From an uncultured Flavobacteriaceae bacterium (GTDB taxonomy: Bacteria; Bacteroidota; Bacteroidia; Flavobacteriales; Flavobacteriaceae): DNA of 64,000 nt. The position numbers were made by a program, and so were the translations under genes. The notes below the pieces were generated by a model that was given only the letters and a program-made list of their open reading frames with translations, had not been told where the DNA came from and searched no databases. Below, piece after piece: positions 351 through 63,751 of the stretch. Numbering within the stretch: the first letter of the stretch is position 1; every line of letters begins with the position of its first letter. The stretch covers positions 2,480,001 through 2,544,000 of the forward strand of contig CALSTV010000001.1 of NCBI GenBank assembly GCA_943789365.1, given 5' to 3'.

Positions 351-1856
351 ATGAAAAAAATAATAATTTTATTACTTAGTATAGTTATTGTCTCTTGTTC
401 TAAATATTTAGAAGAGGATTTACTGACGAACCCGTCGTTAAATGGTTTGACAACGGAAGATGATGTAAAAGCAGCGCTTACAGGTGCTTATGCGGGACTT
501 CTCGGAAGTTCGAATCCAGGATATTACGGTAGAAATTATTTGTATTTAAGAGAGGTGCCTACCGATAATCTTTTTGGTACAGGGGCAAGAAAAGACTTTG
601 ATAACTTTGTAGGTCTAGGTACAAGTAATTCAGTAGTTGTCAATACCTACAACGATATTTATGCAATGATTTTGAAAGCAAATTTACTCGTTGATAATGT
701 GGATAATGCAAACATAGATGAAGACTTAATCAACTGGTACAAAGCACAAGCGCAGTTTCTACTCGCATTGGGGTATTCTGATTTGACAAGTCTTTTTGGA
801 GAGGTTGTATTAATTACTTCTTCTGTAAATGATATCGAAGAAAAACCATCTAGAACTTCTGTTGAAGAAGTCGAGCAATATATTTTAGCATTGCTAGAGG
901 AGGCAATTCCGCATTTAGATAAAGAAGACGCTGAAAATTTACCCGGAGCGGCAACCTTGGGAGCTGGTTATGCTCTTAAAATGAAACTCCATCTAAAAAG
1001 AAAGGAATGGGCTAAAGTAGAGGAAACTGCCGATTTGATTATGGGATTGGGGAGATATAATTTATTGCCAAACATAGAAGATTTATACACCATCGGAAAT
1101 TCCTTCAATGAAGAAATTATTTTTTCTGTTAAAACAACTGGTGACCCTTATGGGAAATCATTGAATGCATTGGCTGCCGGAAGTACAGATATTGCCCAGC
1201 ATCAATACGATGGTCAAAATGATTATTGGGGATTCGGAACCTTTAGAGGCGAGCTCAAAGTATATTATTCGTATGACCCTGCCGATGATCGTTTTACGAA
1301 ATTGTTTCGACACAGTTTTATAGATAGAAAAGGAAAGACCGTTGGTCCAAAAACATTGGATAACAAAAATAATCCGGACGTAAACAAAAGTCTGCCTTAT
1401 ATTTATTCTGAAAAATATCCACATCCATTAGCTGGAACTGCAACGGATTTGAGAACAGATATTTACCATGGTAGTACTTTGTTTGTCTCTCGTTACGCAG
1501 AGGTACTATTAGCGAAGGCCGAAGCTTTAAACGAGATTAATGGTCCCTCACAGGAAGTGTTTGACTTGATCAATGAAGTTAGAAACAGAGCAAACCTTTC
1601 AAACTTGGAAACTACAGGGAGTTTTGATCAAACCTCTTTAAGAGATGCCATTTTTCAAGAGCGTCAGTGGGAATTTTATATGGAAGGATACAGAAGAGAT
1701 GATTTAATTCGACAAGGAACCTTTGTTGACAAAGTTAGACACTCGCATCTAAAAAGTACAGATTTAATCGATGTACAAGAATGCCATCAGTTATTTCCAA
1801 TTCCTGAAATTGAAAGATCACTGAATAAGAATCTTACGCAAAATGAGTGTTATTAA
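351..1856 (+). CDS. SusD/RagB-family outer-membrane glycan-binding lipoprotein
   Basis: A 501-residue surface lipoprotein that caps the SusC receptor and binds glycan. The N-terminus has a short hydrophobic signal ending in a lipobox, IVIVSC, with Cys16 as the likely lipidated residue. The body is SusD-like: a TPR-rich helical region around residues 60-230, and the C-terminal block with ERQWEFYMEGYRRDDLIR near residue 440, which is highly characteristic of the family. The last residues (QLFPIPEIERSLNKNLTQN) are also typical. It follows the SusC end by 3 bases and so is co-transcribed. The length is normal for the family. The ligand is not predictable from sequence alone. Confidence 0.95.
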   Translation: MKKIIILLLSIVIVSCSKYLEEDLLTNPSLNGLTTEDDVKAALTGAYAGLLGSSNPGYYGRNYLYLREVPTDNLFGTGARKDFDNFVGLGTSNSVVVNTYNDIYAMILKANLLVDNVDNANIDEDLINWYKAQAQFLLALGYSDLTSLFGEVVLITSSVNDIEEKPSRTSVEEVEQYILALLEEAIPHLDKEDAENLPGAATLGAGYALKMKLHLKRKEWAKVEETADLIMGLGRYNLLPNIEDLYTIGNSFNEEIIFSVKTTGDPYGKSLNALAAGSTDIAQHQYDGQNDYWGFGTFRGELKVYYSYDPADDRFTKLFRHSFIDRKGKTVGPKTLDNKNNPDVNKSLPYIYSEKYPHPLAGTATDLRTDIYHGSTLFVSRYAEVLLAKAEALNEINGPSQEVFDLINEVRNRANLSNLETTGSFDQTSLRDAIFQERQWEFYMEGYRRDDLIRQGTFVDKVRHSHLKSTDLIDVQECHQLFPIPEIERSLNKNLTQNECY

Positions 1857-1908
1857 GTTCTGTTCTAAAGAGAAATAGGAAGTAAGACTGAATCGTTAAA
1901 AAAGGAAT

Positions 1909-1985
1909 GTCACCTCGAGCGGAGTCGAGAGGTCGTGTTAATAAAAACCTCACTAAAAATTGAGTCTCGACTCCGCTCGACCTGA
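1909..1985. repeat. REP-like inverted pair (CTCGA...TCGAG hairpins)
   Basis: In the 214-base gap between susD and the first sulfatase, one arm at about 1909-1933 contains CTCGAGCGGAGTCGAG and an inverted arm at about 1964-1985 contains TCTCGACTCCGCTCGA. Each arm folds by itself (CTCGA with TCGAG), and the arms also pair with each other around a spacer of roughly 30 bases. The same core recurs in degenerate form at 63532-63751. This is the organization of dispersed REP/BIME elements. It could act as a transcript-end stem-loop after susD, but there is no T-run. Confidence 0.75.
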
Positions 1986-2070
1986 CGTTGACCTTTGAGA
2001 ACTCGAATGCGATGGGCTAAGATTGTGTCAATCGTTTTGCTATTCGTAACATTTAATTTAAATAAGAATT

Positions 2071-3555
2071 ATGAAACTAAAATTTATTGGAATTCTAGTG
2101 GTCGCAATAAGTTTATTTTCTTGCGAAGAAAACGCGAAACAACCTCGAAAAGAAGAGGTTAAAATGCCGTTAAAGCCAAATATTATTTATATTCTAGCAG
2201 ACGACTTGGGCTATGGTGATCTCAGTTGCTACGGACAAACAAAATATGCTACCCCTAATATTGATAAGCTAGCTTCTCAAGGAATCTTGTTTACACAACA
2301 TTATTCCGGAAGTACCGTTTGTGCTCCTTCACGTTCTGCTTTAATGACAGGGATGCATACAGGACATACTGTCATTAGAGGGAATAAAGTAAGGAGAAAT
2401 AATGAGGAATTGTTAGAAGGGCAGTTTCCCATGCCAGACAATACCTATACCCTCCCTGAAATGCTTAAAGAAAAAGGCTATAAAACGGGCGCTTTTGGGA
2501 AATGGGGATTGGGATTTCCAGGTTCTGAAGGAGATCCTGTCAATCAAGGTTTTGACACCTTTTTCGGGTATAACTGTCAGCGTTTGGGACATAATTACTA
2601 CCCATATCATTTATGGTCTAATAAAGACTCTATTGTACTTGCTGGAAATGCAGGAAAGAAAAAAGAAATATATGGACCGGATTTAATTCATCAACAAACA
2701 TTGAAATTTATGGAGGACAATAAAAAAGAACCTTTCTTTTTATATGTGGCCTCTATCATTCCTCATGCAGAATTGGTGGCTCCGGATAAAATCCTCCAAA
2801 ATTTTCGAGGAAACTACGAACCGGAAAAAAAGTTTGAAGGCGTAGATGCTGGTCCGGAATATAGAAATGGTCCTTATGGTTCTCAAAAAGAATGTCATGC
2901 CACATTTGCTGCCATGGTCTCAATTTTAGACCAACAGGTAGGAGAAATCATGGACAAAGTAAAAGCCTTGGGATTAGAGAAAAACACCCTTATCGTATTT
3001 ACGTCTGACAATGGTCCTCATCGAGAAGGTGGTGCAGATCCCGACTTTTTTAATAGCAATGGTTCCCTTAAAGGACACAAACGCGATTTGTACGAAGGAG
3101 GTATTCGGGTACCTATGATTGCAAGCTGGCCGGGTAAAATAAAAGCAAATACCAGAACGGATCATATCTCTGCTTTTTGGGATGTTTTTCCTACCTTCGG
3201 TGCAATTGTAGATGCCAAAATGCCAACAAATATTGATGGCGTTTCCTTTTTACTAACGCTTTTAAACAATACTAAAAAGCAAAAAAATCACGAGTATTTG
3301 TATTGGGAATTTCATGAAAAAGGAGGAAGACAAGCGGTACGTATGGGTAATTGGAAGGCGGTTAAATACAATGTCTTAAATCAACCGAATGCTCCCTTAG
3401 AATTGTATGATATCACTAAGGATATAAAAGAAGGAAACGACCTGGCAAAAGAGCATCCTGAAATTGTTCAGGAAATGGAAAAGATTTTTGAGGAAGCAAG
3501 AACCCCGTCGAGCGTTTTTACCTTTAAACAAGAAACCTATTTAAGCAGTAAATAA
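2071..3555 (+). CDS. Family S1 sulfatase, lipoprotein
   Basis: A 494-residue arylsulfatase-type enzyme. The lipobox LFSC puts the lipidated Cys at residue 18, so it is probably anchored in the envelope. The sulfatase core starts with NIIYILADDLGYGD (metal-binding Asp44 and Asp45), followed by the signature CAPSR with Cys84 as the residue to be oxidised to formylglycine. TSDNGPH near residue 310 and KGHKRDLYEGGIRVP are further S1 landmarks. Length and motif order are complete. It lies downstream of susD after a REP-like pair and is followed after 6 bases by the alpha/beta hydrolase gene. The inferred role is removal of sulfate esters from a glycan; regiospecificity cannot be judged. Confidence 0.95.
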   Translation: MKLKFIGILVVAISLFSCEENAKQPRKEEVKMPLKPNIIYILADDLGYGDLSCYGQTKYATPNIDKLASQGILFTQHYSGSTVCAPSRSALMTGMHTGHTVIRGNKVRRNNEELLEGQFPMPDNTYTLPEMLKEKGYKTGAFGKWGLGFPGSEGDPVNQGFDTFFGYNCQRLGHNYYPYHLWSNKDSIVLAGNAGKKKEIYGPDLIHQQTLKFMEDNKKEPFFLYVASIIPHAELVAPDKILQNFRGNYEPEKKFEGVDAGPEYRNGPYGSQKECHATFAAMVSILDQQVGEIMDKVKALGLEKNTLIVFTSDNGPHREGGADPDFFNSNGSLKGHKRDLYEGGIRVPMIASWPGKIKANTRTDHISAFWDVFPTFGAIVDAKMPTNIDGVSFLLTLLNNTKKQKNHEYLYWEFHEKGGRQAVRMGNWKAVKYNVLNQPNAPLELYDITKDIKEGNDLAKEHPEIVQEMEKIFEEARTPSSVFTFKQETYLSSK

Positions 3556-3561
3556 ACTATT

Positions 3562-6393
3562 ATGAAGCGAATTAATATCCTTTTATTTTTGGTGACAACG
3601 TTTGTCTTTGCACAAGAAAGTTTTACACCTATAGATATCCCAAATTGTCAGATTCTATTAAAAGACGGAACTGGAATTCAAGATGTGAATGCTGCTGTTT
3701 TTCAATGGGACAATCAAGCGCAGGATAATTTTCACGCAGTACAGTCGGATCCTGATTTAAGACCCGTACCATCTTTTGAAACATGGCCGGGATATGTGAC
3801 GCTTGCCAATGAAGGTGCACGAGAGTATTTATATATTGAGGACATCGATGCTATAGATTTTTCTAATGGGATGACCGTGTTTTATGTAGGAAAAACCAAA
3901 GATTTAACTGCCTTGTCTGCTTTTGTAGGAAATCATGTAGGGAATACAGATATTGGATATACGGGTTGGAGGTTAGGAGTTTCAAAAATATTTCAAGTAA
4001 AAGCAGATTTTGGTCTTGGCGCAGAAAAACAATCACTCAATGGAGGAACCCATAATACAGACAATCCAATTGCTTTGTCACTTCAATATTCAGACAAACA
4101 GGTAGAAATGCATCAAGGATCACTAGATCAAGTGTTTTCAAGAACCTTGAGCGAAGACTTAGTTTTAAGTGATCGCCCACTGTTATTAAATGCGCAATAC
4201 AAGCCTACGAATTTATCTTGGATTCCTGTCGTTGCAAACTATGAAATGGCGAGTGTAATTATCTTTAATCGCGACTTAGATGCAAATGAACATGACCAAG
4301 TATGGGCCTGGTTAAAAGAGGAATATCCGGACGCTTTTGATAAAGGATTTGGTTTGGAAGAAGGTTTTAAAGGAAGTAATAACCTTTCAGAAGATGCGTC
4401 TTTAGAAATTTCTTTTAATCAAGAATTAAACTCAGCTACTGAATTTCCAATAGTTTATAAGAATTCATTGGGAGAAAATCCTATCGCCGGAACTTGGGAG
4501 CTTATGAGCGATGCATCAAAAATTAAATTTACACCGCTAGCGCCTTTTGAAAAAGGATCTTTGGTTGTGGTTGATTTATTAAATGCTGTAACTGCTGCTG
4601 GAGGCGATTTGTTTGAAAACACAAAAGAAAGATATGTTAGTTATATCGTAGAAACGGAAGAGGTTTTTGATATTGAGTCCTTTGTAATACCGAGCATAAA
4701 AGTAACAGAACAATCGCCTGGGATATCTCATAATATACCTTTGGAAATATCCATACCCAAATCTTTGGGTTCAGAAAATTCGCTGGCACCAACACCTGTT
4801 GTATTTTGGGTACATGGTGGCGCATGGTCTGGAGGTACCTTGGAGGAGTCTTTCCCTGCGAAAGGAAACTTCAGCTCCTATTTGGTGAAACATGCAGGTG
4901 TTGCTGTAATTGGTGTTGCCTATCGATGTAAAGGGTCTTTAGGTAATTTTACGGAGGCTATGGAAGATATCGAATCTGCAGTGCAATGGGCAAAAGATAA
5001 TGCTGAAGCCTACAATTTAGATGTCACACGAATTGGTTTTGCCGGAGGTTCTGCCGGAGGTCCTTTGTCGGCCTTGGCTGCACAAAGAACGGAAGACTGT
5101 AAGCTGTATGTTGGTTTTAATGGAATATATGATTTTGTCGATACAGGCAATTCTGCTTTTGGAGGAGGAAACGCATATGGTCAAACAGAGCCAAGTGCAG
5201 CAGCAAATTCAGCAATGCATAATATTAAAGACGTCCCTCCATATACACTTCTTTTACACGGTTCAGAAGATACCACAATAGACCCAAATCAAAGTGTGAG
5301 ATTTGCAGAAGCTGTGATCGACAAGGGGGGAAGTGCTGATGTAAATATTTATGATGGAGAAGTGCATTCATTTTTTAGTTCAGGTCAAATGAATATCCCT
5401 TGTACATGGGAGTTTAAAGAGGCTTGTTTAAAAGCATTTGACCAAAATTTAAACACCAATTTAATTATAAAAAGTATTCATAACAAATCATCATATGCGC
5501 CAAGTTTTAATAACGAGTCTTATTATTTTACCTTTGTTGAATTGAAGGTTTTGTACAATTCGATAAATCTAAACGACTATTTTATAAGGTTTTTAAACGG
5601 AGTAGATGATGCAACGACCACTAGGAAAATAGGAGGGTTGTTTACGAAAACTATAGACTCCTATGATAGTGAAACCACTACCTACACGACAAGCGTAAGT
5701 GAAAATACGAATCTAGCAATAGGTTCGTCTTTTTATTTTATAGAAATGTATAAAGAGGTTAGTAACGGAGACGATCTCTTGTTAACGACGAATAACAATA
5801 CGATGTATAGAGTGTTTCAAGAATATCTTGGTCTTAGTGATGCCGAAATGTTATCTAAGAAATATTTTACGGTAGCCACAGCTACTAAAGAAAATTTTGA
5901 GGCTTCTATTAGCGATGTTAATTCTTTTTTAACCATAAGAAAAGGGTCAATAGCAGAAGATGTTTGGACAGACGGTCTTGCCGAAGATACTGCCATTGTG
6001 CGTTCCACACTAATTCCTACAACAACCTTTACACCATCGCAATGGACTGTGCCTCTTAGTACAAATAACATACAGAATACATTTGAAAATACAGTGTTTC
6101 CAAATCCAGTTGCTGCTGGTGAAATGTTGAATTTTAACGCTGTTTCTAAGGGTGAAGTCGACAATACTAACCGCAATGAATTTTCAAATTCAGTGGTTGC
6201 TGGACAAGTATTGAATTTAAATGCAGACTCTAAAGAAATTCGAATTTATGATCTTTCAGGACAGCTAATGCAAGTGGATAAAAATATCCTGAATACATAT
6301 ATAATACCGGAAAGTTTACATAAAGGAGTTTATATACTAAAAATTAAATACAGTCGAGGTGCGATCGAGAGTCATCAAATAATTGTTATCTAA
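3562..6393 (+). CDS. T9SS-exported multidomain alpha/beta hydrolase (esterase-like) with LamG-like and Ig-like domains
   Basis: A 943-residue secreted protein with signal peptide MKRINILLFLVTTFVFAQ. Residues about 20-255 look like a concanavalin/LamG-type beta domain, about 265-370 like an SbsA/Big-type Ig domain. About 375-630 is an alpha/beta hydrolase of the BD-FAE/lipase-esterase type, with oxyanion motif HGGA (His418), nucleophile elbow GGSAGG (Ser497), acid near Asp570 and catalytic His602 in GEVHSFF. A region of unknown fold (about 640-820) leads to a C-terminal T9SS sorting domain with FPNP and LKIKYSRG-type strands. The sorting domain carries an internal duplication, described separately. 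It probably removes acyl esters (acetyl, for example) from the glycan served by this locus; that is inference. Confidence 0.88.
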   Translation: MKRINILLFLVTTFVFAQESFTPIDIPNCQILLKDGTGIQDVNAAVFQWDNQAQDNFHAVQSDPDLRPVPSFETWPGYVTLANEGAREYLYIEDIDAIDFSNGMTVFYVGKTKDLTALSAFVGNHVGNTDIGYTGWRLGVSKIFQVKADFGLGAEKQSLNGGTHNTDNPIALSLQYSDKQVEMHQGSLDQVFSRTLSEDLVLSDRPLLLNAQYKPTNLSWIPVVANYEMASVIIFNRDLDANEHDQVWAWLKEEYPDAFDKGFGLEEGFKGSNNLSEDASLEISFNQELNSATEFPIVYKNSLGENPIAGTWELMSDASKIKFTPLAPFEKGSLVVVDLLNAVTAAGGDLFENTKERYVSYIVETEEVFDIESFVIPSIKVTEQSPGISHNIPLEISIPKSLGSENSLAPTPVVFWVHGGAWSGGTLEESFPAKGNFSSYLVKHAGVAVIGVAYRCKGSLGNFTEAMEDIESAVQWAKDNAEAYNLDVTRIGFAGGSAGGPLSALAAQRTEDCKLYVGFNGIYDFVDTGNSAFGGGNAYGQTEPSAAANSAMHNIKDVPPYTLLLHGSEDTTIDPNQSVRFAEAVIDKGGSADVNIYDGEVHSFFSSGQMNIPCTWEFKEACLKAFDQNLNTNLIIKSIHNKSSYAPSFNNESYYFTFVELKVLYNSINLNDYFIRFLNGVDDATTTRKIGGLFTKTIDSYDSETTTYTTSVSENTNLAIGSSFYFIEMYKEVSNGDDLLLTTNNNTMYRVFQEYLGLSDAEMLSKKYFTVATATKENFEASISDVNSFLTIRKGSIAEDVWTDGLAEDTAIVRSTLIPTTTFTPSQWTVPLSTNNIQNTFENTVFPNPVAAGEMLNFNAVSKGEVDNTNRNEFSNSVVAGQVLNLNADSKEIRIYDLSGQLMQVDKNILNTYIIPESLHKGVYILKIKYSRGAIESHQIIVI
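6097..6237 (+). repeat. Intragenic duplication inside the T9SS sorting domain
   Basis: Bases 6097-6156 and 6181-6237 are diverged copies of one segment of the hydrolase gene. The encoded peptides align as FPNPVAAGEMLNFNAVSKGE and FSNSVVAGQVLNLNADSKE. The first copy keeps the FPNP motif that opens type A sorting domains; the second has become FSNS. The spacing stays in frame. Confidence 0.8.
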
Positions 6394-6498
6394 TTTATTA
6401 AAAAAAAGAATGTATTTTAATAACAATATGAATTAGCATCTCAAATTAATCTTTAGGATGATTTGATATTTTAAAAAATGATAAAGAATATATAAAGA

Positions 6499-7986
6499 AT
6501 GAATAGTACCGTACTTATGAAAAAGGCAAGCACAAATATTAAAAAGTATAAAAGACGTCTGAATGACGTACTGAAGTTGTTAGTGTTGATTGTGATACCT
6601 GTTCAGAGCTCCTCTGTGTATTGTCAATCGAGTAGCAAAGGAAATACAACTTCAAAGAAGCCAAATATTGTTTTTATCCTAGCAGACGATTTAGGTTATG
6701 GAGACCTTGGTTTCAACGGACAAGATAAAATTAAAACTCCTGTACTCGATCATATGGCGGCTGAAGGAATTGTATTTACAAGGCATTATGCGGGTTCTGC
6801 TGTCTGTGGACCTTCACGTGCCAGTTTGATGACAGGAATGCATACCGGGAATTCTCCCGTAAGAGAAAATCCGAGATGGACGCATTCAGGGCAACCCGTG
6901 GATATGTCTTCATCAGACGTTACAGTTGCCGAGGAACTGAAACGCGCAAATTACAATACTGGAATCATTGGAAAATGGGGACTGGCAGAAAACCTCAAAG
7001 AAGGAACTCCTAACCTACAAGGATTCGATTATTTTTATGGATTCAATAGACATAAAAATGCCCATCATTATTATCCTGAAAATATATGGGAAAATGAAAA
7101 CTTTATAGCTGTCGAAGGAAACGTTACACAGGATAAAATAGGTCAGTATTCTCAAGATTTATTTACAGAAAAAGCTCTGTCTTTTCTGGAGAATCAAAGT
7201 GCAGAAAAACCTTTCTTTTTGTATTTAGCCTATACCATTCCGCATTTTGAATTGACCATTCCGGAAGAACAAAAGAAACAATACAAAGACTTAAACTGGC
7301 CTTTGCGAAAAATGAAAGCAGCGCATTATCGTCATGATGAAAATGGACATGTTACCTACGCAGCGATGGTAAGCAGGTTGGACAAAGATGTGGGTAAGGT
7401 TTTAGACAAGCTTAAGTCGTTGGGGTTTGATGACAATACCTTGGTCATTTTTACAAGTGATAACGGACACGAATATGACAATTTGAAGAATGAATTTTTC
7501 AATAGTAATGGTGAGTTTAGAGGTAAAAAAAGAGACCTGTATGAAGGCGGTATCCGTATGCCATTCGTAGCCCGTTGGCCAAACACAATAAAAGCGGGTA
7601 CTACTACAGATCATATTTCTGCTTTTTGGGACTTTTTGCCTACAGCTTGTGCTATTGCAGGGGTGAAACCAAGCGCAAAAATAGATGGGATATCGTATTT
7701 GCCGGCGTTGACCAATGAAAAGAATACGCAGAACAAGCACGACTATTTGTACTGGGAGTTCAATGAAAAACAAGGGCCAATACAAGCGCTGTCAAAAGAC
7801 GATTGGAAATTGGTACACTTTGTAAACAAGCGATATGAACTGTATAATCTTAAAAATGATCCTTCTGAATTGAATGAAATATCAAAGCTGCACCCTGAGG
7901 TTTTAAAAGAACTACAAGAATTATTAGCTACAGCCAGAACAGAGCATCCAGAGTTTCCTTTGGTAAGAAAGCATCTTAAAAAATAA
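6499..7986 (+). CDS. Family S1 sulfatase
   Basis: A 495-residue S1 sulfatase. A basic N-region is followed by the hydrophobic stretch LLVLIVIPVQSSSVYCQ, a Sec signal; the second ATG at 6517 is an equally possible start and leaves the signal intact. The core starts at NIVFILADDLGYGD (Asp63, Asp64) and has the signature CGPSR with Cys103 as formylglycine precursor. Motif order (TSDNGH, KRDLYEGGIRMP) closely matches the sulfatase at 2071, so the two look like paralogues that diverged within the locus. A 105-base A/T-rich gap separates it from the hydrolase gene. The inferred role is desulfation of a glycan. Confidence 0.94.
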   Translation: MNSTVLMKKASTNIKKYKRRLNDVLKLLVLIVIPVQSSSVYCQSSSKGNTTSKKPNIVFILADDLGYGDLGFNGQDKIKTPVLDHMAAEGIVFTRHYAGSAVCGPSRASLMTGMHTGNSPVRENPRWTHSGQPVDMSSSDVTVAEELKRANYNTGIIGKWGLAENLKEGTPNLQGFDYFYGFNRHKNAHHYYPENIWENENFIAVEGNVTQDKIGQYSQDLFTEKALSFLENQSAEKPFFLYLAYTIPHFELTIPEEQKKQYKDLNWPLRKMKAAHYRHDENGHVTYAAMVSRLDKDVGKVLDKLKSLGFDDNTLVIFTSDNGHEYDNLKNEFFNSNGEFRGKKRDLYEGGIRMPFVARWPNTIKAGTTTDHISAFWDFLPTACAIAGVKPSAKIDGISYLPALTNEKNTQNKHDYLYWEFNEKQGPIQALSKDDWKLVHFVNKRYELYNLKNDPSELNEISKLHPEVLKELQELLATARTEHPEFPLVRKHLKK

Positions 7987-8087
7987 GTTGATAGACGCAT
8001 ATCAATTTTTAATAAATAGGGGTACTTTTATCAGTACAAAAAATTTAGAACAATCCATTTTCGATTACACAACTTAGTTTTTAGCAA

Positions 8088-9518
8088 ATGAAAAAAAGCA
8101 TTTTATTATTTCTCTTTAGTACACTTATGGTCAACGCTCAGCAAAAATCACCTGTGGTGAGCCTGTCGAAGCCAAATGTCATCCTAATTGTATCAGATGA
8201 TCACGGTTATGCCGATTTTTCCTATAAAGGAATGTACGACTATATCAAAACTCCAAATCTTGATAAAATGCACGAAGATGGTGTGAATTTTACCAATGCT
8301 TATGTGACGGCACCGATTTGTAGTCCTTCTCGTGTAGGCATCATCACCGGACAATATCAGGCACGTAGCGGAAATTATTTTTATGGAGGTCCCGGCTTAG
8401 ATAAAAATGTGAATACCATGCCGCAAGGCTTTAAATCGGCAGGATATACTACAGCCTACTTTGGAAAATTGCATTATGGGAAAAATGATGGTCCTGATGG
8501 ATTTGCACATCCCATAAATCATGGTTTTGACGAAAGTATTGTTGCAGGAAAAGGTGGGCGTGTACATTACTTATATCACAATAAAGAGGCTGTTGAAAAA
8601 CATAGCGGTACGGCTGCGCCATGGTTGAAAAATGGAAAAGAAATGGAGCTTGATGGGTTTACTACTGAAATTATATCCGGTTGGGCGCAAGACTATATCG
8701 CATCACATCAAGAACAACCTTTTTTCTTGCAAATTGCATTTAATGCAGTACACAATTTTAACCATCAATTGCCGGAAAAATACCTGAAAGAATGGGACTT
8801 ACCCTATTATCCCGATTTTGAGGAACTGGAAGGGGGTGAAAAGTATGAGCATTGGTACAACCGCTCTATCATGCCAAACATGCCAAATGGGCGTTTGTAT
8901 TATGCGGCTCAATTATACTATATGGACAGAGAGATTGGTATCATTCGAAGACAATTAGAAGCGTTAGGGATGGCTGAGAATACCATCGTGGTATATGTGA
9001 GTGACAACGGAGGAAGTAACTGTAATGGAGGTGAAAACAAACCACTACGAAGCACAAAGTATTCGCTTTTCGAAGGAGGTGTGAGGGTGCCAATGATGCT
9101 AAGTTGGGGTGACAAGTTCAAGAATCTTGAAAACAATAATATCGTGAGTACTATGGATCTGATGCCAACATTATTAACCGCTGCAAACGCACCAAAAGGA
9201 AGTTATGCACACTGTGATGGAATTGATATTTTACCTGGTATTGAAGACTCCACAAAAATACAACGCGATGAACTGGTATGGGATGTAGGTTTTGCTTGGG
9301 CGGTGCGTAAAGGAGACTGGAAGTTGAAGGTGATGACGAATCAAAAGCAAGCAGATAAAATTAGTAAGAAACAACATACCGACATGGGAAAAGGAATTGA
9401 ACTCTACAACTTGAAAAACGATATTGGGGAAACCAAGAACCTAGTAAGTCAATATCCGAATATTGTAGAAAAGTTAACCCTTATTCATGAAAACTGGTTA
9501 CAGGATGTTGGTAAATAA
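8088..9518 (+). CDS. Family S1 sulfatase with REP-like sequence after the signal peptide
   Basis: A 476-residue secreted S1 sulfatase. The signal peptide is MKKSILLFLFSTLMVNAQ. The core starts at NVILIVSDDHGYAD (Asp37, Asp38) and the signature is CSPSR with Cys78 as formylglycine precursor. VSDNGGSN near residue 304 and LFEGGVRVP follow. It is more divergent from the two preceding sulfatases than they are from each other, suggesting another linkage specificity. The codons just after the signal peptide (8148-8173) match a dispersed REP-type motif, reported as a finding. The next sulfatase starts 20 bases after its stop, so they are likely co-transcribed. Confidence 0.94.
   Translation: MKKSILLFLFSTLMVNAQQKSPVVSLSKPNVILIVSDDHGYADFSYKGMYDYIKTPNLDKMHEDGVNFTNAYVTAPICSPSRVGIITGQYQARSGNYFYGGPGLDKNVNTMPQGFKSAGYTTAYFGKLHYGKNDGPDGFAHPINHGFDESIVAGKGGRVHYLYHNKEAVEKHSGTAAPWLKNGKEMELDGFTTEIISGWAQDYIASHQEQPFFLQIAFNAVHNFNHQLPEKYLKEWDLPYYPDFEELEGGEKYEHWYNRSIMPNMPNGRLYYAAQLYYMDREIGIIRRQLEALGMAENTIVVYVSDNGGSNCNGGENKPLRSTKYSLFEGGVRVPMMLSWGDKFKNLENNNIVSTMDLMPTLLTAANAPKGSYAHCDGIDILPGIEDSTKIQRDELVWDVGFAWAVRKGDWKLKVMTNQKQADKISKKQHTDMGKGIELYNLKNDIGETKNLVSQYPNIVEKLTLIHENWLQDVGK
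8148..8173 (-). repeat. REP-type motif within a coding sequence
   Basis: On the minus strand this stretch reads through CTTCGACAGGCTCACC followed by ACAGGTGA, the familiar core of dispersed palindromic elements seen in many bacterial genomes. Here it lies in frame in the sulfatase gene and encodes roughly SPVVSLSK between the signal peptide and the catalytic core. Confidence 0.55.
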
Positions 9519-32510: not shown

Positions 32511-32960
32511 ATGAGTTTACAGAAAAAAATAATGGAGCAGTTAAAAGCTGCTATGAAATCAAAAGACAGCGTTGCGTTAGAATCGTTAAGAGCCATTAAA
32601 TCTGCCATTTTATTGGCGCAAACAGAGAGTGGAGCGAAAGAAGAAATTTCTGAGGATCAGGAATTGAAAATACTTCAAAAACTTGTAAAACAACGGAAAG
32701 ACAGCGCCGTATTATTTAAAGAACAAGGACGCGATGACTTAGCTGCTCCTGAATTGGCACAGGCGGAAGTTATTGCACAGTTTTTACCGGAGCAGATGAG
32801 CGAAGCTGACATCAAAGAAGTTGTAACGGGGATTATTGCCCAGATAGGAGCATCTGGCATGAAAGATATGGGAAAAGTAATGGGTATGGCCTCAAAACAA
32901 CTCGCAGGAAAAGCTGATGGGAAAACAATCTCTGCCCTAGTAAAAGCTGCTTTGGTATAG
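32511..32960 (+). CDS. GatB/YqeY domain-containing protein
   Basis: A 149-residue cytoplasmic helical protein homologous to the tRNA-binding tail of GatB. It begins MSLQKKIMEQLKAAMKSKD at ATG 32511; an upstream ATG at 32439 would add 24 residues unlike the family. The motifs LRAIKSAILLAQ, LVKQRKDSAVLFKEQGRDDLA and FLPEQMSE are characteristic, as is the C-terminal GKVMGMASKQLAGKADGK. The function of free-standing YqeY proteins is unsettled; tRNA-related roles are assumed from the GatB domain. Confidence 0.93.
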   Translation: MSLQKKIMEQLKAAMKSKDSVALESLRAIKSAILLAQTESGAKEEISEDQELKILQKLVKQRKDSAVLFKEQGRDDLAAPELAQAEVIAQFLPEQMSEADIKEVVTGIIAQIGASGMKDMGKVMGMASKQLAGKADGKTISALVKAALV

Positions 32961-33054
32961 TGGTATGGTCTGCTTGTTTTGCGGTTATGCAGTCTTTTGG
33001 CTTAGTCTTGAAAATTAGAATATTTAAAGGTTTCCAATACTGTAAAAAAAATAG

Positions 33055-33062
33055 TACATTCG
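33055..33062 (+). promoter_or_regulatory. Possible -7 element of the tRNA-Arg gene
   Basis: TACATTCG is one mismatch from TAnnTTTG and ends 9 bases before the tRNA, a spacing expected for a tRNA promoter in this phylum. Confidence 0.45.
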
Positions 33063-33071
33063 CACTTAATT

Positions 33072-33145
33072 GGCCTCGTAGTTCAACTGAATAGAATATC
33101 AGATTTCGGCTCTGAGGGTTGCAGGTTTGAATCCTGCCGGGGTCA
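33072..33145 (+). tRNA. tRNA-Arg, anticodon TCG
   Basis: A complete 74-base cloverleaf. The acceptor stem GGCCTCG pairs with CGGGGTC (two G-T pairs); the anticodon stem TCAGA/TCTGA encloses loop TTTCGGC with anticodon TCG, which reads CGA. The T stem is GCAGG/CCTGC, and discriminator base A is at 33145; CCA is not encoded. The D-loop has G18-A19 instead of G18-G19, and the T-loop has T at position 56 instead of C, so the universal G19-C56 tertiary pair appears replaced by A19-U56. No other tRNA is nearby. A long hairpin follows at once. Confidence 0.93.
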
Positions 33146-33150
33146 CGAAT

Positions 33151-33213
33151 AAATACAAAGCCTTAAAGAAATCAAGAAGCTCGCTTCATTGATTTCTTTA
33201 AGGCTTTGTATTT
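33151..33213 (+). terminator. Long hairpin after tRNA-Arg (25-bp perfect stem)
   Basis: The arm 33151-33175 is the exact reverse complement of 33189-33213; the 13-base loop holds a further GAAGC/GCTTC pairing. TTTT at 33211-33214 ends the right arm. It probably terminates the tRNA transcript. The right arm is also the start of the 96-bp repeat unit, so it recurs in every copy of the array downstream, while the left arm occurs once. Confidence 0.8.
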
Positions 33214-34126
33214 TCAAAGCGGAGCTTTGTCAGGAAAGGCGCAGCCAATCCTGAGATTCGTGCATCGTCTTTGAAAGAACTTCATTGATTTCTTTAAGGC
33301 TTTGTATTTTCAAAGCGGAGCTTTGTCAGGAAAGGCGCAGCCAATCCTGAGATTCGTGCATCGTCTTTGAAAGAACTTCATTGATTTCTTTAAGGCTTTG
33401 TATTTTCAAAGCGGAGCTTTGTCAGGAAAGGCGCAGCCAATCCTGAGATTCGTGCATCGTCTTTGAAAGAACTTCATTGATTTCTTTAAGGCTTTGTATT
33501 TTCAAAGCGGAGCTTTGTCAGGAAAGGCGCAGCCAATCCTGAGATTCGTGCATCGTCTTTGAAAGAACTTCATTGATTTCTTTAAGGCTTTGTATTTTCA
33601 AAGCGGAGCTTTGTCAGGAAAGGCGCAGCCAATCCTGAGATTCGTGCATCGTCTTTGAAAGAACTTCATTGATTTCTTTAAGGCTTTGTATTTTCAAAGC
33701 GGAGCTTTGTCAGGAAAGGCGCAGCCAATCCTGAGATTCGTGCATCGTCTTTGAAAGAACTTCATTGATTTCTTTAAGGCTTTGTATTTTCAAAGCGGAG
33801 CTTTGTCAGGAAAGGCGCAGCCAATCCTGAGATTCGTGCATCGTCTTTGAAAGAACTTCATTGATTTCTTTAAGGCTTTGTATTTTCAAAGCGGAGCTTT
33901 GTCAGGAAAGGCGCAGCCAATCCTGAGATTCGTGCATCGTCTTTGAAAGCGCTTCATTGATTTCTTTAAGGCTTTGTATTTTCAAAGCGGAGCTTTGTCA
34001 GGAAAGGCGCAGCCAATCCTGAGATTCGTGCATCGTCTTTGAAAGCGCTTCATTGATTTCTTTAAGGCTTTGTATTTTCAAAGCGGAGCTTTGTCAGGAA
34101 AGGCGCAGCCAATCCTGAGATTCGTG
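33184..34126 (+). repeat. Tandem array of a 96-bp non-coding unit, about 9.8 copies
   Basis: Units start at 33184, 33280, 33376, 33472, 33568, 33664, 33760, 33856, 33952 and 34048; the last stops after 79 bases at 34126. The copies appear identical except at the junction before CTTCATT: most have GAAAGAA, while the last two units are preceded by GAAAGCG. Every unit has a stop codon in all six frames, so it does not code for protein. Each unit can form a hairpin CAAAGC-GGA-GCTTTG and a second stem TCAGGA/TCCTGA enclosing GGC/GCC. There are no unique spacers, so it is not CRISPR. Confidence 0.97.
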
Positions 34127-34283
34127 TGTTAGGTAAATAAAACTTTTGTATATTTAATGAGTCGCATTCGCCCTGAATGGTTGAGAATAGTGATTGTAGT
34201 ATGGTGTTGTAGCGAAGTGCAATAGGACATTGAACGAATTGTCATAACAGTGTTGTTTTAAATCAAAGCTTAAAAACCATCAT

Positions 34284-35930
34284 ATGAAAAACTATCTTTT
34301 ATTTTCCTTAATAGCATTTCTCGTTATATCTTGTCAAAATTCGCCTACGAACTACGATGTGGTTATCCTAAACGGTCGTGTGATGGATCCGGAAACCAAT
34401 TTCGATGCCGTTAGAAATGTTGGAATTGTAGGCGATAAAATTGTAACGATTACTGAAGCGGCCATTAAAGGGAAAGAAACCATTGACGCCACTGGTCATG
34501 TGATCACTGCCGGATTTATTGATACCCAAAACCACGGACATGGTCTAAAATGGAATGCCAAGATAGGATTGCGTGACGGGGTAACCACTCCTTTAGATTT
34601 AGAAGCTGGAAACCTAAACGTAGCACAGTTCTACGAAGAAAGGACAAACAACTGGCCAGTGAATTATGGAGCTGCTGTTTCCCATGAGGCCATTCGTATG
34701 AAGGTCTTAGACAAGATGAAAATGGATGCACCTGTAGATGCCAGTCACCTTTTAAAAGTCTATAGAGGTGCCTCTTATGATGAAAATGGCGTTCCAGACT
34801 GGGCAGAAACCCGTTCTACGTTAGCACAGATTAACGAAATCATGGCTATTGCCGACGAAGAATTTCGACAAGGTGCCCTTACAGCTGGATCTACTATGGG
34901 GTATATGGCGAAAGGCGCTTCAACTTTGGAAGTGTTCAATTATCAAAAAGTAGCGGCAAATTACGGAAGAGCTAGTAGTTTCCATGTGCGTTTGCTCGGT
35001 AACAACAGTCCGCCATATGAAGGAAATCTTGGTTCCTTTGAGCAATTGGTAAATGGAATGGCGTTGGACGCTCCTGTACTGTTTAGTCATAATGCTTATC
35101 AAGGTTGGTGGGAAGTTGAAGAACATGCGCAATTGTTTCGAAAGCAAGGCAAAAATGTTTGGTCTGAATATTATCCATATATCTGTGGTTCCTCTACCAT
35201 TGGTTCAGAATTCTTAACACCTGAAGGAATCAAATTAATAGGGAGTGATTACAGTCATATGCAAGATCCGAGAACAGGGGAGGCATATACAGAAGCAACC
35301 TATAAAGCACAGGTTGCAAAAGATCCCGGCTATACCATTATACTTTGTTTTCCTGTAAAGGAAGAGTGGTTAAAACTCTTTTTAGAAGTACCACATATGA
35401 CTGTGGCGGGAGATGCTATGCCTGGAACCGATATCAACGGAGAATGGCTCAAGTGGGAAGATGGATATGACAAATATGTTGGTCACCCAAGAACAGCAGG
35501 TTCCCATGCGAAAACCTTTCGATTGGCAAGAGAAAATAAAGTTCCGCTTATGCAAACTATTTCTCAAAACAGCTATTGGGCAGCCTTGCATTTAGGAGAT
35601 GCAGGTTTGGGGTCTATGAAAGTTCGCGGAAGAATGCAAGAAGGTATGATAGCTGATATTACCATTCTTAATCCAAAAACCATCACGGACAATGCGACCT
35701 ATGTATTGGGTGAAAATGGGAGGCCATCCACTGGAATTCCATATGTGTTAGTAAGTGGAGTTGTTATGGTCGATAATTCTAAAGTGGTAGAAGGGAAGAA
35801 TCCTGGTAAACCAATTCGTTACCCAATAGAAGAAAAAGGAAGATGGCTGCCTCTGGAAAGAACCTCTTATTTGGAAAATTTACTCGCACCAGATATTCCA
35901 GAGGATTTACATGACCATGGTGTGGAATAG
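34284..35930 (+). CDS. D-aminoacylase-like amidohydrolase lipoprotein
   Basis: A 548-residue amidohydrolase-superfamily protein exported as a lipoprotein (lipobox FLVISC, Cys17). The order of blocks fits N-acyl-D-amino-acid deacylase/dihydroorotase-like enzymes: DVVILNGRVMDPET, the first metal block GFIDTQNHGHG (81-87 region), DGVTTPLDLEAG, SFHVRLLG, LFSHNAYQG, AGDAMPGTD, and the late GMIADITILNP. The first block normally reads H-x-H; here the first His is Gln82, with His84 and His86 following. Whether two metals are still bound is uncertain. It opens a run of five envelope genes and follows the 96-bp array after 157 bases in which no other feature is evident. Confidence 0.85.
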   Translation: MKNYLLFSLIAFLVISCQNSPTNYDVVILNGRVMDPETNFDAVRNVGIVGDKIVTITEAAIKGKETIDATGHVITAGFIDTQNHGHGLKWNAKIGLRDGVTTPLDLEAGNLNVAQFYEERTNNWPVNYGAAVSHEAIRMKVLDKMKMDAPVDASHLLKVYRGASYDENGVPDWAETRSTLAQINEIMAIADEEFRQGALTAGSTMGYMAKGASTLEVFNYQKVAANYGRASSFHVRLLGNNSPPYEGNLGSFEQLVNGMALDAPVLFSHNAYQGWWEVEEHAQLFRKQGKNVWSEYYPYICGSSTIGSEFLTPEGIKLIGSDYSHMQDPRTGEAYTEATYKAQVAKDPGYTIILCFPVKEEWLKLFLEVPHMTVAGDAMPGTDINGEWLKWEDGYDKYVGHPRTAGSHAKTFRLARENKVPLMQTISQNSYWAALHLGDAGLGSMKVRGRMQEGMIADITILNPKTITDNATYVLGENGRPSTGIPYVLVSGVVMVDNSKVVEGKNPGKPIRYPIEEKGRWLPLERTSYLENLLAPDIPEDLHDHGVE

Positions 35931-44848: not shown

Positions 44849-44900
44849 AGTTTCAAGTTTCAAGTTTCAAGTTTCAAGTTTCAGGTTTCAGGTTTCAGGT
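44849..44900 (+). repeat. Heptamer tract AGTTTCA/GGTTTCA, seven units
   Basis: Five AGTTTCA units are followed by two GGTTTCA units and a partial one, then a T-rich stretch. It lies in the spacer between miaB and the sigma-54 activator gene, about 70-120 bases upstream of the latter's start. This is a simple repeat prone to slippage. Confidence 0.95.
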
Positions 44901-44917
44901 TTTTTTTCGTTTTTTTT

Positions 44918-44973
44918 GCTACCTGCTACCTGCTACCTGCTACCTGCTACCTGCTACCTGCTACCTGCTACCT
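44918..44973 (+). repeat. Heptamer tract GCTACCT, eight units
   Basis: Eight exact GCTACCT units are followed by GCTATCA. The tract covers the 3' end of miaB: its stop codon and last three to four codons are read from repeat units. A second, different heptamer tract lies 17 bases away at 44849-44900. Confidence 0.95.
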
Positions 44974-46439
44974 GCTATCAACTCAAAAGGAATTTCTTGT
45001 GCTGCGCTAACCGCTTTTCCAATGAGCGTGGCAGAAGTACATTCTTCTACTTTTACCAAAACAAAATCTCCTACTTTTTCGTTTCCTTTAGGGAATACGG
45101 TTACATAATTTTGAGAATTTCGAGACATCCAGTGTTGGTCTGATTTTTTTGAAGTCCCTTCAATCAGTACTTCAATTGTTTTGCCAACATAGGTTTGCGT
45201 ATTTGCATTGCTCAAATTTCTTTGTAAATGTATAACTTCATTCAGCCTTCTTTTTTTGATGTCTTCTGGAACATCATCTTTCATTTTTTTAGCAGCTAGT
45301 GTGCCAGGCCTCTCTGAGTATGCATACATAAAACCATAGTCATAACCTACATATTCCATCATACTCATGGTATCTTGATGTTCCGCTTCCGTTTCTCCAC
45401 AAAAACCGATAATCATGTCTTGAGAAATAGCTGTTTCGGGAATGATTTTTCTAATGGTGTCTATAAGTTCCATGTATTCTTCCCTTGTATGCTGTCTGTT
45501 CATGCGTTCTAATACAGAGGTGCTTCCTGATTGTACAGGAAGGTGTAAATAGCGACAGATATTAGGGTGTTTTGCAATCACATGCAACACTTCAATTTCC
45601 ATATCTTGGGGATTGCTTGTAAAAAAGCGTATTCTCAATTCAGGAAAGTTTGTGGCCACTAAATCTAGCAAAGCTGCAAAACCTACCGCTGTAGCTTGGG
45701 CAATGTCTGAGGCTTTTTCAAAATCTTTCTTTAGCCCACCACCATACCAAAGATAACTATCTACATTTTGACCTAATAATGTGATTTCTCTATAATTCTT
45801 GTCTTTTAAATCCTGTATTTCTTTGATGATGCTTTCCGGGTCTCGACTTCGTTCTCTACCTCTTGTAAAGGGAACCACGCAGAAGGTACACATATTATCA
45901 CAACCTCTTGTAATGGATACAAAAGCAGAAACGCCATTAGAGTTTAATCGCACAGGAGCAACATCTCCGTAGGTTTCTTCTTTGGATAATACAACGTTTA
46001 CAGCATCTCTTCCTTCGTTTACTTCTGCAAGTAAATTGGGGAGATCTTTATACGCATCCGGACCTACGACTAGATCCACAATTTTTTCTTCGTCTAAAAA
46101 CTTCGATTTTAAACGTTCTGCCATACAGCCCAAAACACCTACTTTCATGTTTGGGTTTATCTTTTTTACCGAATTGTATTTTTGAAGACGTTTGCGAATG
46201 GTCTGTTCCGCTTTATCTCTAATAGAGCAGGTGTTTACCAAAACCAAATCGGCTTCTTCTAACAATTGAGTCGTGTTAAAGTTGTTTTCGGAAAGTATTG
46301 AAGCGACAATTTCACTGTCGTTCAAATTCATTTGACAACCGTAACTTTCTATATATAATTTCTTTGTATTTCCTTTGATGTCATTTGTAAGCAACGGGCG
46401 TCCTTGCTTGTTGGCATCTATGATTTTTTCAGTCTCCAT
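44961..46439 (-). CDS. miaB: tRNA-2-methylthio-N6-dimethylallyladenosine synthase MiaB
   Basis: A 492-residue radical-SAM methylthiotransferase that modifies A37 of tRNAs reading UNN codons. The N-terminal iron-sulfur domain has Cys in SYGCQMN, NTCSIR and LGCMAE; the radical-SAM cluster motif is RGCDNMCTFCVVPFTRGRERSR near residue 180. A C-terminal TRAM domain spans about 415-480. The last residues (IAGSR) are encoded by the heptamer tract at 44918-44973. A TATCTTTG -7 box lies just upstream on the minus strand. Confidence 0.97.
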   Translation of the reverse strand: METEKIIDANKQGRPLLTNDIKGNTKKLYIESYGCQMNLNDSEIVASILSENNFNTTQLLEEADLVLVNTCSIRDKAEQTIRKRLQKYNSVKKINPNMKVGVLGCMAERLKSKFLDEEKIVDLVVGPDAYKDLPNLLAEVNEGRDAVNVVLSKEETYGDVAPVRLNSNGVSAFVSITRGCDNMCTFCVVPFTRGRERSRDPESIIKEIQDLKDKNYREITLLGQNVDSYLWYGGGLKKDFEKASDIAQATAVGFAALLDLVATNFPELRIRFFTSNPQDMEIEVLHVIAKHPNICRYLHLPVQSGSTSVLERMNRQHTREEYMELIDTIRKIIPETAISQDMIIGFCGETEAEHQDTMSMMEYVGYDYGFMYAYSERPGTLAAKKMKDDVPEDIKKRRLNEVIHLQRNLSNANTQTYVGKTIEVLIEGTSKKSDQHWMSRNSQNYVTVFPKGNEKVGDFVLVKVEECTSATLIGKAVSAAQEIPFELIAGSR

Positions 46440-63531: not shown

Positions 63532-63751
63532 CTCTCGAGCGAAGTGGATTTTAGTTTTTGTTGATTCTATTTTTAAATGTCCCCTCGAGCAGAGTCGAGA
63601 GGTGTTTTCTTAAGTAGAATGAATTGTTTAAATTCGACGTGGTCTCGACTCCGCACGACCTGACATTATTGGACATCGCCTTACAATTATCGACTCCGCT
63701 CGATCTGACAATATTTGACCACGCCTTACACTTGTTGGCTCCGATCGAATT
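63532..63751. repeat. Degenerate REP-like cluster with 45-bp tandem spacing
   Basis: At least five copies of the CTCGA/TCGAG core lie here (about 63532, 63579, 63645, 63690, 63736). From 63646 the copies recur every 45 bases with a shared spacer (CTGACA...CGCCTTACA), in progressively degenerate form. They share their core with the inverted pair at 1909-1985. Confidence 0.8.

Follow-up and report, generated by a model that had tools for sequence, protein, structure and literature searches.

The near-identical 96-bp repeats located directly behind a tRNA-Arg(TCG) gene of an uncultured Flavobacteriaceae bacterium are, judged by sequence comparison, tandem copies of the 3′ part of a 116-bp non-coding element which starts exactly at the end of the tRNA. 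We propose that a small element inserted precisely at the 3′ end of this tRNA gene and that part of it was afterwards expanded in tandem, an explanation that we favour with slightly better than even confidence. The occurrence of related units in other genomes suggests that a family of tiny elements which would insert at tRNA tails has been overlooked; such a mini-element was probably inserted site-specifically at tRNA 3′ ends and moved in trans. The array itself is best seen as the recent slippage or exchange product of part of this tRNA-tail element, and its copies may be functionless in themselves. If true, this would explain the repeat arrays behind tRNA genes in Flavobacteriaceae and provide a simple model in which to study how a tRNA stays expressed after integration. 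No description of the element was found in our literature searches.

Anatomy of the element and its tandem array

The features are numbered by their position in the window, that is, the whole stretch of 64,000 nucleotides that was analysed:

33072..33146, plus strand: tRNA-Arg (anticodon TCG), with AATCCTGCCGGGGTCAC at its 3′ end as the presumed site of insertion
33147..33262, plus strand: complete first copy of the element, 116 bp, from GAATAAAT to ATTCGTG, with the same anatomy in relatives
33151..33213, plus strand: hairpin A, whose long stem is nearly perfect and which, by eye, looks like a terminator in many relatives
33215..33229, plus strand: hairpin B, CAAAGC-GGA-GCTTTG, 10 copies in the array
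33230..33254, plus strand: hairpin C, a T-arm mimic, TCAGGA-AA-GGC-GCA-GCC-AA-TCCTGA
33184..34126, plus strand: tandem array (TRF, unit comparison), with a unit made of the 3′ arm of A, B, C and ATTCGTG, and 17-bp linkers
33950..33951, plus strand: AA>CG variant at the end of unit 8 (unit comparison)
34046-34047, plus strand: AA>CG variant at the end of unit 9 (unit comparison)

TRF reported positions 33184-34126 as a repeat of period 96 with 9.8 copies, 99% matches and a score of 1858, the four remaining rows in the window scoring 50-131. In the assembly, the array consists of nine full 96-bp units plus 79 bp, with tRNA-Arg(TCG) upstream, in agreement with the original prediction of ten units in 96-bp register, the last of them partial. 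A unit-by-unit comparison showed that units 1-7 are mutually identical, that unit 10 is identical over its 79 bp and that units 8 and 9 differ solely in their last two bases; the two-base variant that had been noticed is thus an AA>CG change ending both units. Stops in all six frames of the 96-bp unit were borne out by the unit check. Two interpretations made at the outset, namely that copying or selection acts at the level of DNA or RNA rather than protein and that the near-identity of the units reflects a recent expansion, are supported by our results.

The start of the array lies inside the apex of the long hairpin that follows the tRNA and is not a biological boundary of the element. With the repeat starting at this apex, only the first copy possesses the 5′ arm of A, and the copies after the first consist of the 3′ arm of A, B and C, joined by a 17-bp linker. 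Read from the exact tRNA end, the order of the complete element is CAC|GAATAAAT, the long hairpin A, hairpin B, hairpin C and ATTCGTG. This last motif (33256-33262) can pair with CACGAAT at the junction between tRNA and element, of which it is the reverse complement, in a 7-bp closing stem. In the predicted RNA fold of the tRNA-CAC and the complete element, three arms are held together by a closing stem (-59.8 kcal/mol, z -10.6, none of 200 shuffles as good). A lone internal unit reached a z of -1.47, with 16 of 200 shuffles as good. A four-way junction was predicted for all four ATTCGTG-type elements that were folded. As this type of end was found in 29 of 243 B copies (13 loci; nine copies in the window; reversed control 0), the four-way junction was rejected as a general feature.

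Within its own genome, all ten exact matches of the B pattern fall inside the array, and convincing matches to the element are confined to the array or its first element, with a single weak partial match outside (E 0.3). Two further repeat regions were seen in the window. Adjacent heptamer arrays, AGTTTCA (7.7 copies) and TGCTACC (8.7 copies), are located at 44849-44977 between two minus-strand ORFs and overlap the end of one of them, and a 45-bp repeat with 2.3 copies and 81% matches is present at 63645-63748.

Linkage to tRNA genes and conserved pairing in relatives

A BLAST search with the unit gave matches in 18 of 99 genomes, including its own; a tRNA was present at 17 of the 18 first loci, and in all 17 cases the element was on its 3′ side. 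A tRNA-independent pattern for hairpin B was found in 64 of 299 family genomes and 59 of 236 genera, with no match for the reversed control. Among the 69 distinct B clusters in 69 fetched stretches, a tally that leaves out some pattern matches which were unfetched or already in hand, 57 are located downstream of a tRNA with the same orientation, four at a bare (detached) tRNA tail, three at contig edges and five elsewhere. The first B lies 63-71 bp from the tRNA end in 43 of the 57 tRNA-linked clusters, and in the sequence comparison the spacing between element start and tRNA end was near-constant. A covariance model, which is not tRNA-blind because it includes the last seven tRNA bases, produced 39 matches in 24 of 60 genomes; 30 of these were fetched (two in one locus), 28 with a tRNA upstream and two with a bare tRNA tail. 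In a scan of named genomes, 80 of 118 stretches were named among the matches listed, mainly from Flavobacteriaceae or Flavobacteriales, and some of the matches listed lie in coding-like or other sequence. The search of related genomes and tRNA 3′ flanks that the original prediction had suggested as a check has therefore revealed related units beside other tRNA 3′ ends, with the same module present behind Arg, Tyr, Leu and Val tRNAs. Duplicates and near-duplicates were removed for the anatomy comparison, the random tRNA-Arg sample, the arm swap and the B-cluster and strand counts, and motifs more than 600 bp from the tRNA were left out of the anatomy comparison in relatives.

Two observations from this survey stand apart. 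At L066, an element with a bare tRNA-like tail was found on a contig binned as Nitrotoga, which is possibly misbinned. L033, L045, L212 and L217 contain another repeat, TCAAAGCGNAGCTTTG between longer arms, and no tRNA was found beside it.

The near-identity of the units could also be the signature of a misassembly that inflated the copy number. However, the module forms arrays in other genomes with differing tandem periods, at least two copies are present in 20 of the 57 tRNA-linked clusters (its own genome included) and the AA>CG variant is common to two units, and we regard an assembly artefact as very improbable.

Conserved structure, the subject of another suggested check, was found in relatives in the form of conserved pairing in hairpin A. 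An alignment of 86 first units revealed compensatory changes at 15 of the 24 pairs predicted, every one of them in this hairpin. Of its outer 12 pairs, own arms formed 11.27 on average and swapped arms 7.85, with a maximum of 8.35 in 500 shuffles (66 loci). G.T combinations outnumbered A.C combinations by 24 to 7 (17 loci versus 3), an excess which points to a fold on the tRNA-sense strand; the counts for hairpin C, 8 and 4, gave no clear indication. The likeness of hairpin A averaged 0.81 in 12 pairs within genomes, four of them at 0.56-0.72, and 0.70 in 423 pairs between genomes, a partial excess only, with one G341 locus mislabelled as another genome in this comparison. Hairpin B was nearly constant in loci chosen by B, and its invariance in alignment A1 is by construction, because A1 was chosen for intact B; compensated B variants such as CAACGC/GCGTTG are present in relatives.

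These structures bear on the proposal of the original prediction that read-through from the tRNA yields a sponge or regulatory RNA. In such a scenario, similar to E. coli rtT, the structured repeats would act as RNA, and this would agree with their start behind the tRNA, with the conserved pairing that favours the sense strand and with the fold of the complete element; in addition, a simple scan called no terminator in the window, so that read-through may occur there. On the other hand, hairpin A, which by eye resembles a terminator in many relatives, precedes B and C, a lone unit folds little better than shuffled sequence by its z of only -1.47, and relatives differ from one another in copy number and unit length. 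Promoter-like sites were found at the shuffled level (3 versus 2.2). Within positions 32900-34300 of the window, searched against Rfam with E up to 10, only the tRNA reached the cut-off, and RtT was not among the remaining below-cut-off matches; 20 other loci searched at the gathering score gave 20 tRNAs and one cobalamin riboswitch, likewise without RtT. A regulatory RNA of this kind thus appears quite improbable to us, and the proposal was not supported.

Hairpin C was not aligned by MAFFT. Its inner stem, xyC-GNA-Gy'x', was found by script instead, in 70 of 131 loci (134 minus three without a usable stretch after B), or 66 when those inside the following B are left out. The 5′ strand of C matches the T-stem of its own tRNA in 84 of the 131 loci (shuffled mean 29.4, maximum 44). 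With equal lengths, the agreement was again 84 of 131 for the 5′ strand (shuffled 29.5, maximum 44) and 66 of 131 for the 3′ strand (shuffled 28.4, maximum 39). T-stem agreement is therefore commoner for the 5′ than for the 3′ strand, which plain tail duplication does not predict. A classical attP geometry, with T-stem arms on both sides of a T-loop overlap, is no more than a possible arrangement for hairpin C, because its spacer varies in length. One might speculate that Flavobacteriaceae possess an integron-like chromosomal cassette system, in which structured non-coding cassettes of two or three families, recombining in the form of folded single strands, would be added at tRNA 3′ ends, with hairpin C as the recombination site, the tRNA T-arm as the receiving site and occasional gene cargo (L327), but we consider this improbable.

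Optional presence and copies of the tRNA tail

Among 82 distinct tRNA-Arg loci drawn irrespective of the element, with one short locus left out, 61 have neither element start nor B nor tail copy. Thirteen loci begin with GAATAAAT, four of them without a recognisable B and three flanked by a tail copy, and B is found within 110 nt in 11 loci, among them a three-mismatch match at L289 that is probably due to chance. A tail copy was detected in nine loci: in three the element is at the tRNA end, and in the other six other units or tRNA fragments come first. Within the genus, where yqeY is located upstream of tRNA-Arg(TCG), plus ftsZ where the sequence stretch extends that far, four of six genomes carry the element, namely as the 96-bp array in its own genome, as 45-bp B-C arrays in two and as a single element in one. 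In the other two, the syntenic tRNA is followed by an ordinary terminator instead.

A further comparison of filled and empty sites, made between different genera, concerns L303 and L343 versus L297. The terminator that follows the element and tail copy in L303 resembles the one directly after tRNA-Arg(ACG) in L297 (81% over 59 bp, same register), and a similar match was obtained for L343 (84% over 38 bp). At the sequence level, the L303/L297 comparison supports an insertion between tRNA and terminator. In total, the filled/empty comparison gave 40 matches, 30 of them in register, of which several are second-family units, generic terminators or a locus matched to itself and constitute no evidence; in-register matches of L115 and L238 with L321 bring together different tRNAs. 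One and the same target is thus seen both occupied and empty, in few pairs (two of six genomes empty in the genus; L303 and L343 versus L297).

Copies of the last 17 nt of the host tRNA, with at most two mismatches, were found in 41 of 132 loci (134 minus two short loci) at a distance of up to 900 nt, 30 of the 132 having the copy directly behind B-C (28 Arg, 1 Val, 1 Leu); no tail copy is recognisable in 91, the window included. An exact 17-mer of the tail is present in the 45 nt after B in 16 of 131 loci (shuffled 1.0, maximum 6), where, as in our other shuffle tests and counts, related loci are treated as independent. The Val and Leu loci (L067, L151) and the Tyr locus (L354) have their own host tails. 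Because a direct repeat of the last 17 nt of the host tRNA follows it, the element is flanked by att-like sites at some loci. In 20 displayed loci, tail copies bound units of this family, mostly 111-116 bp, and also units of a second structured family, mostly 163-179 bp, in mixed orders. This second non-coding family was seen at the tRNA-Arg 3′ ends of L271, L280, L233, L208, L063, L110 and L005; its units end in a tRNA tail copy, are sometimes in tandem and have no Rfam match.

A vertically inherited tRNA trailer or terminator module, in which tail copies and arrays arise by slippage or unequal exchange at a locus rich in stems and site-specific recombination plays no part, has a real though limited chance of being correct. 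It would fit the terminator-like appearance of hairpin A in many relatives, the G.T excess expected for a fold on the tRNA-sense strand, the many lengths of the tandem periods and the 91 of 132 loci without a tail copy, and the array in the window needs slippage or exchange under any reading. What argues against it is the patchy presence of the module, with ordinary terminators in congeners, its occurrence behind Arg, Tyr, Leu and Val tRNAs, where the tails match the host, the terminator displaced behind the tail copy in L303 relative to L297 and the alternation of different unit families between tail copies.

Some elements are found in the setting of larger islands. At L128, the element is located at a detached tRNA tail, with the tRNA 2.3 kb upstream, and an integrase-like protein is encoded near a bare tail and element in L174, L145 and L035, the one in L145 scoring just below Pfam's cut-off. 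An integrase-like protein of L330 matched in its N-terminal domains only. None of these proteins was tied to the mini-element. In L327, tRNA-Arg is followed by further units, an element whose B is degenerate, a run of genes of about 7 kb and another element; the genes (685-8100) code for a MarR-like protein (by eye), SusC, SusD and a BCCT transporter, and no integrase is among the ORFs listed. Gene-bearing islands thus use such tRNA-tail ends, and their integrases may move the mini-element. One exact B pattern gave no match in a viral collection, and a blastn search with the window element found nothing among phage and plasmid records, so that no carrier came to light in these searches. The only Y1_Tnp hit of the genome is 6 kb from a tRNA-Arg(ACG) without the element (G000:C1:610136-616401, outside the window).

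In accordance with these observations, precise insertion at the tRNA 3′ end followed by partial tandem expansion, which corresponds to the recombination array that the original prediction had named as an alternative, fits best. The element would have entered where the tRNA runs from the T-loop to the 3′ end, through site-specific recombination carried out in trans by tyrosine recombinases similar to those of islands located behind such tails. Hairpin A could keep the tRNA supplied with a terminator, and B and C may be part of a recombination or structural end. The segment from the apex of A through C would then have been multiplied to ten copies by slippage or unequal exchange, possibly favoured by the hairpin.

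Comparison with known systems

Islands classically integrate at the 3′ ends of tRNA genes. To our knowledge, a widespread non-coding element of about 95 bp that is fixed to these ends would rank with the smallest units known to integrate site-specifically. The element seems to behave as a minimal CIME-like unit with flanking att sites at the tRNA end, sharing the characteristics of CIMEs only in part. E. coli rtT consists of 178-bp repeats with tRNA 3′ sequence, and we know of no description of it as an insertion. C(GNA)G loops form stable DNA hairpins. The many dispersed copies per genome that characterise REP/REPIN sequences were not found for the element; with copies that are not dispersed in their own genome and are fixed to tRNAs, a REP/RAYT reading was rejected.

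The element resembles E. coli tyrT/rtT, described in part of a published account as non-coding RNA or repeats linked to a tRNA operon (PMC4986893), whereas RtT belongs to other bacteria and the element has no Rfam match. It shares with REP/RAYT systems, according to the portion of the literature used here, short intergenic hairpins that are at times in tandem (PMC3733652), but differs in being fixed to tRNA 3′ ends rather than dispersed in its own genome. In Methylophilaceae, additive flexible genomic islands with variable insertions between recurring copies of the last 20 bp of tRNA-Lys are described in the part of the paper drawn on here, as are tRNA-based tycheposons (PMC10872708). These are gene islands of 330 bp to 42 kb, and a structured non-coding unit is not mentioned in that part (PMC10872708). 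Similar to the element, the ssrA islands of Dehalococcoides form tandem units bounded by 20 bp direct repeats of the RNA gene 3′ end, and in the section used here 15 islands without integration modules are suggested to be cis-mobilizable (PMC3146451). The same section indicates that they carry genes and, where an integrase is present, one of the serine type (PMC3146451); the element described here, in contrast, has about 95 bp between repeats, is non-coding, contains conserved hairpins and is found at several tRNAs.
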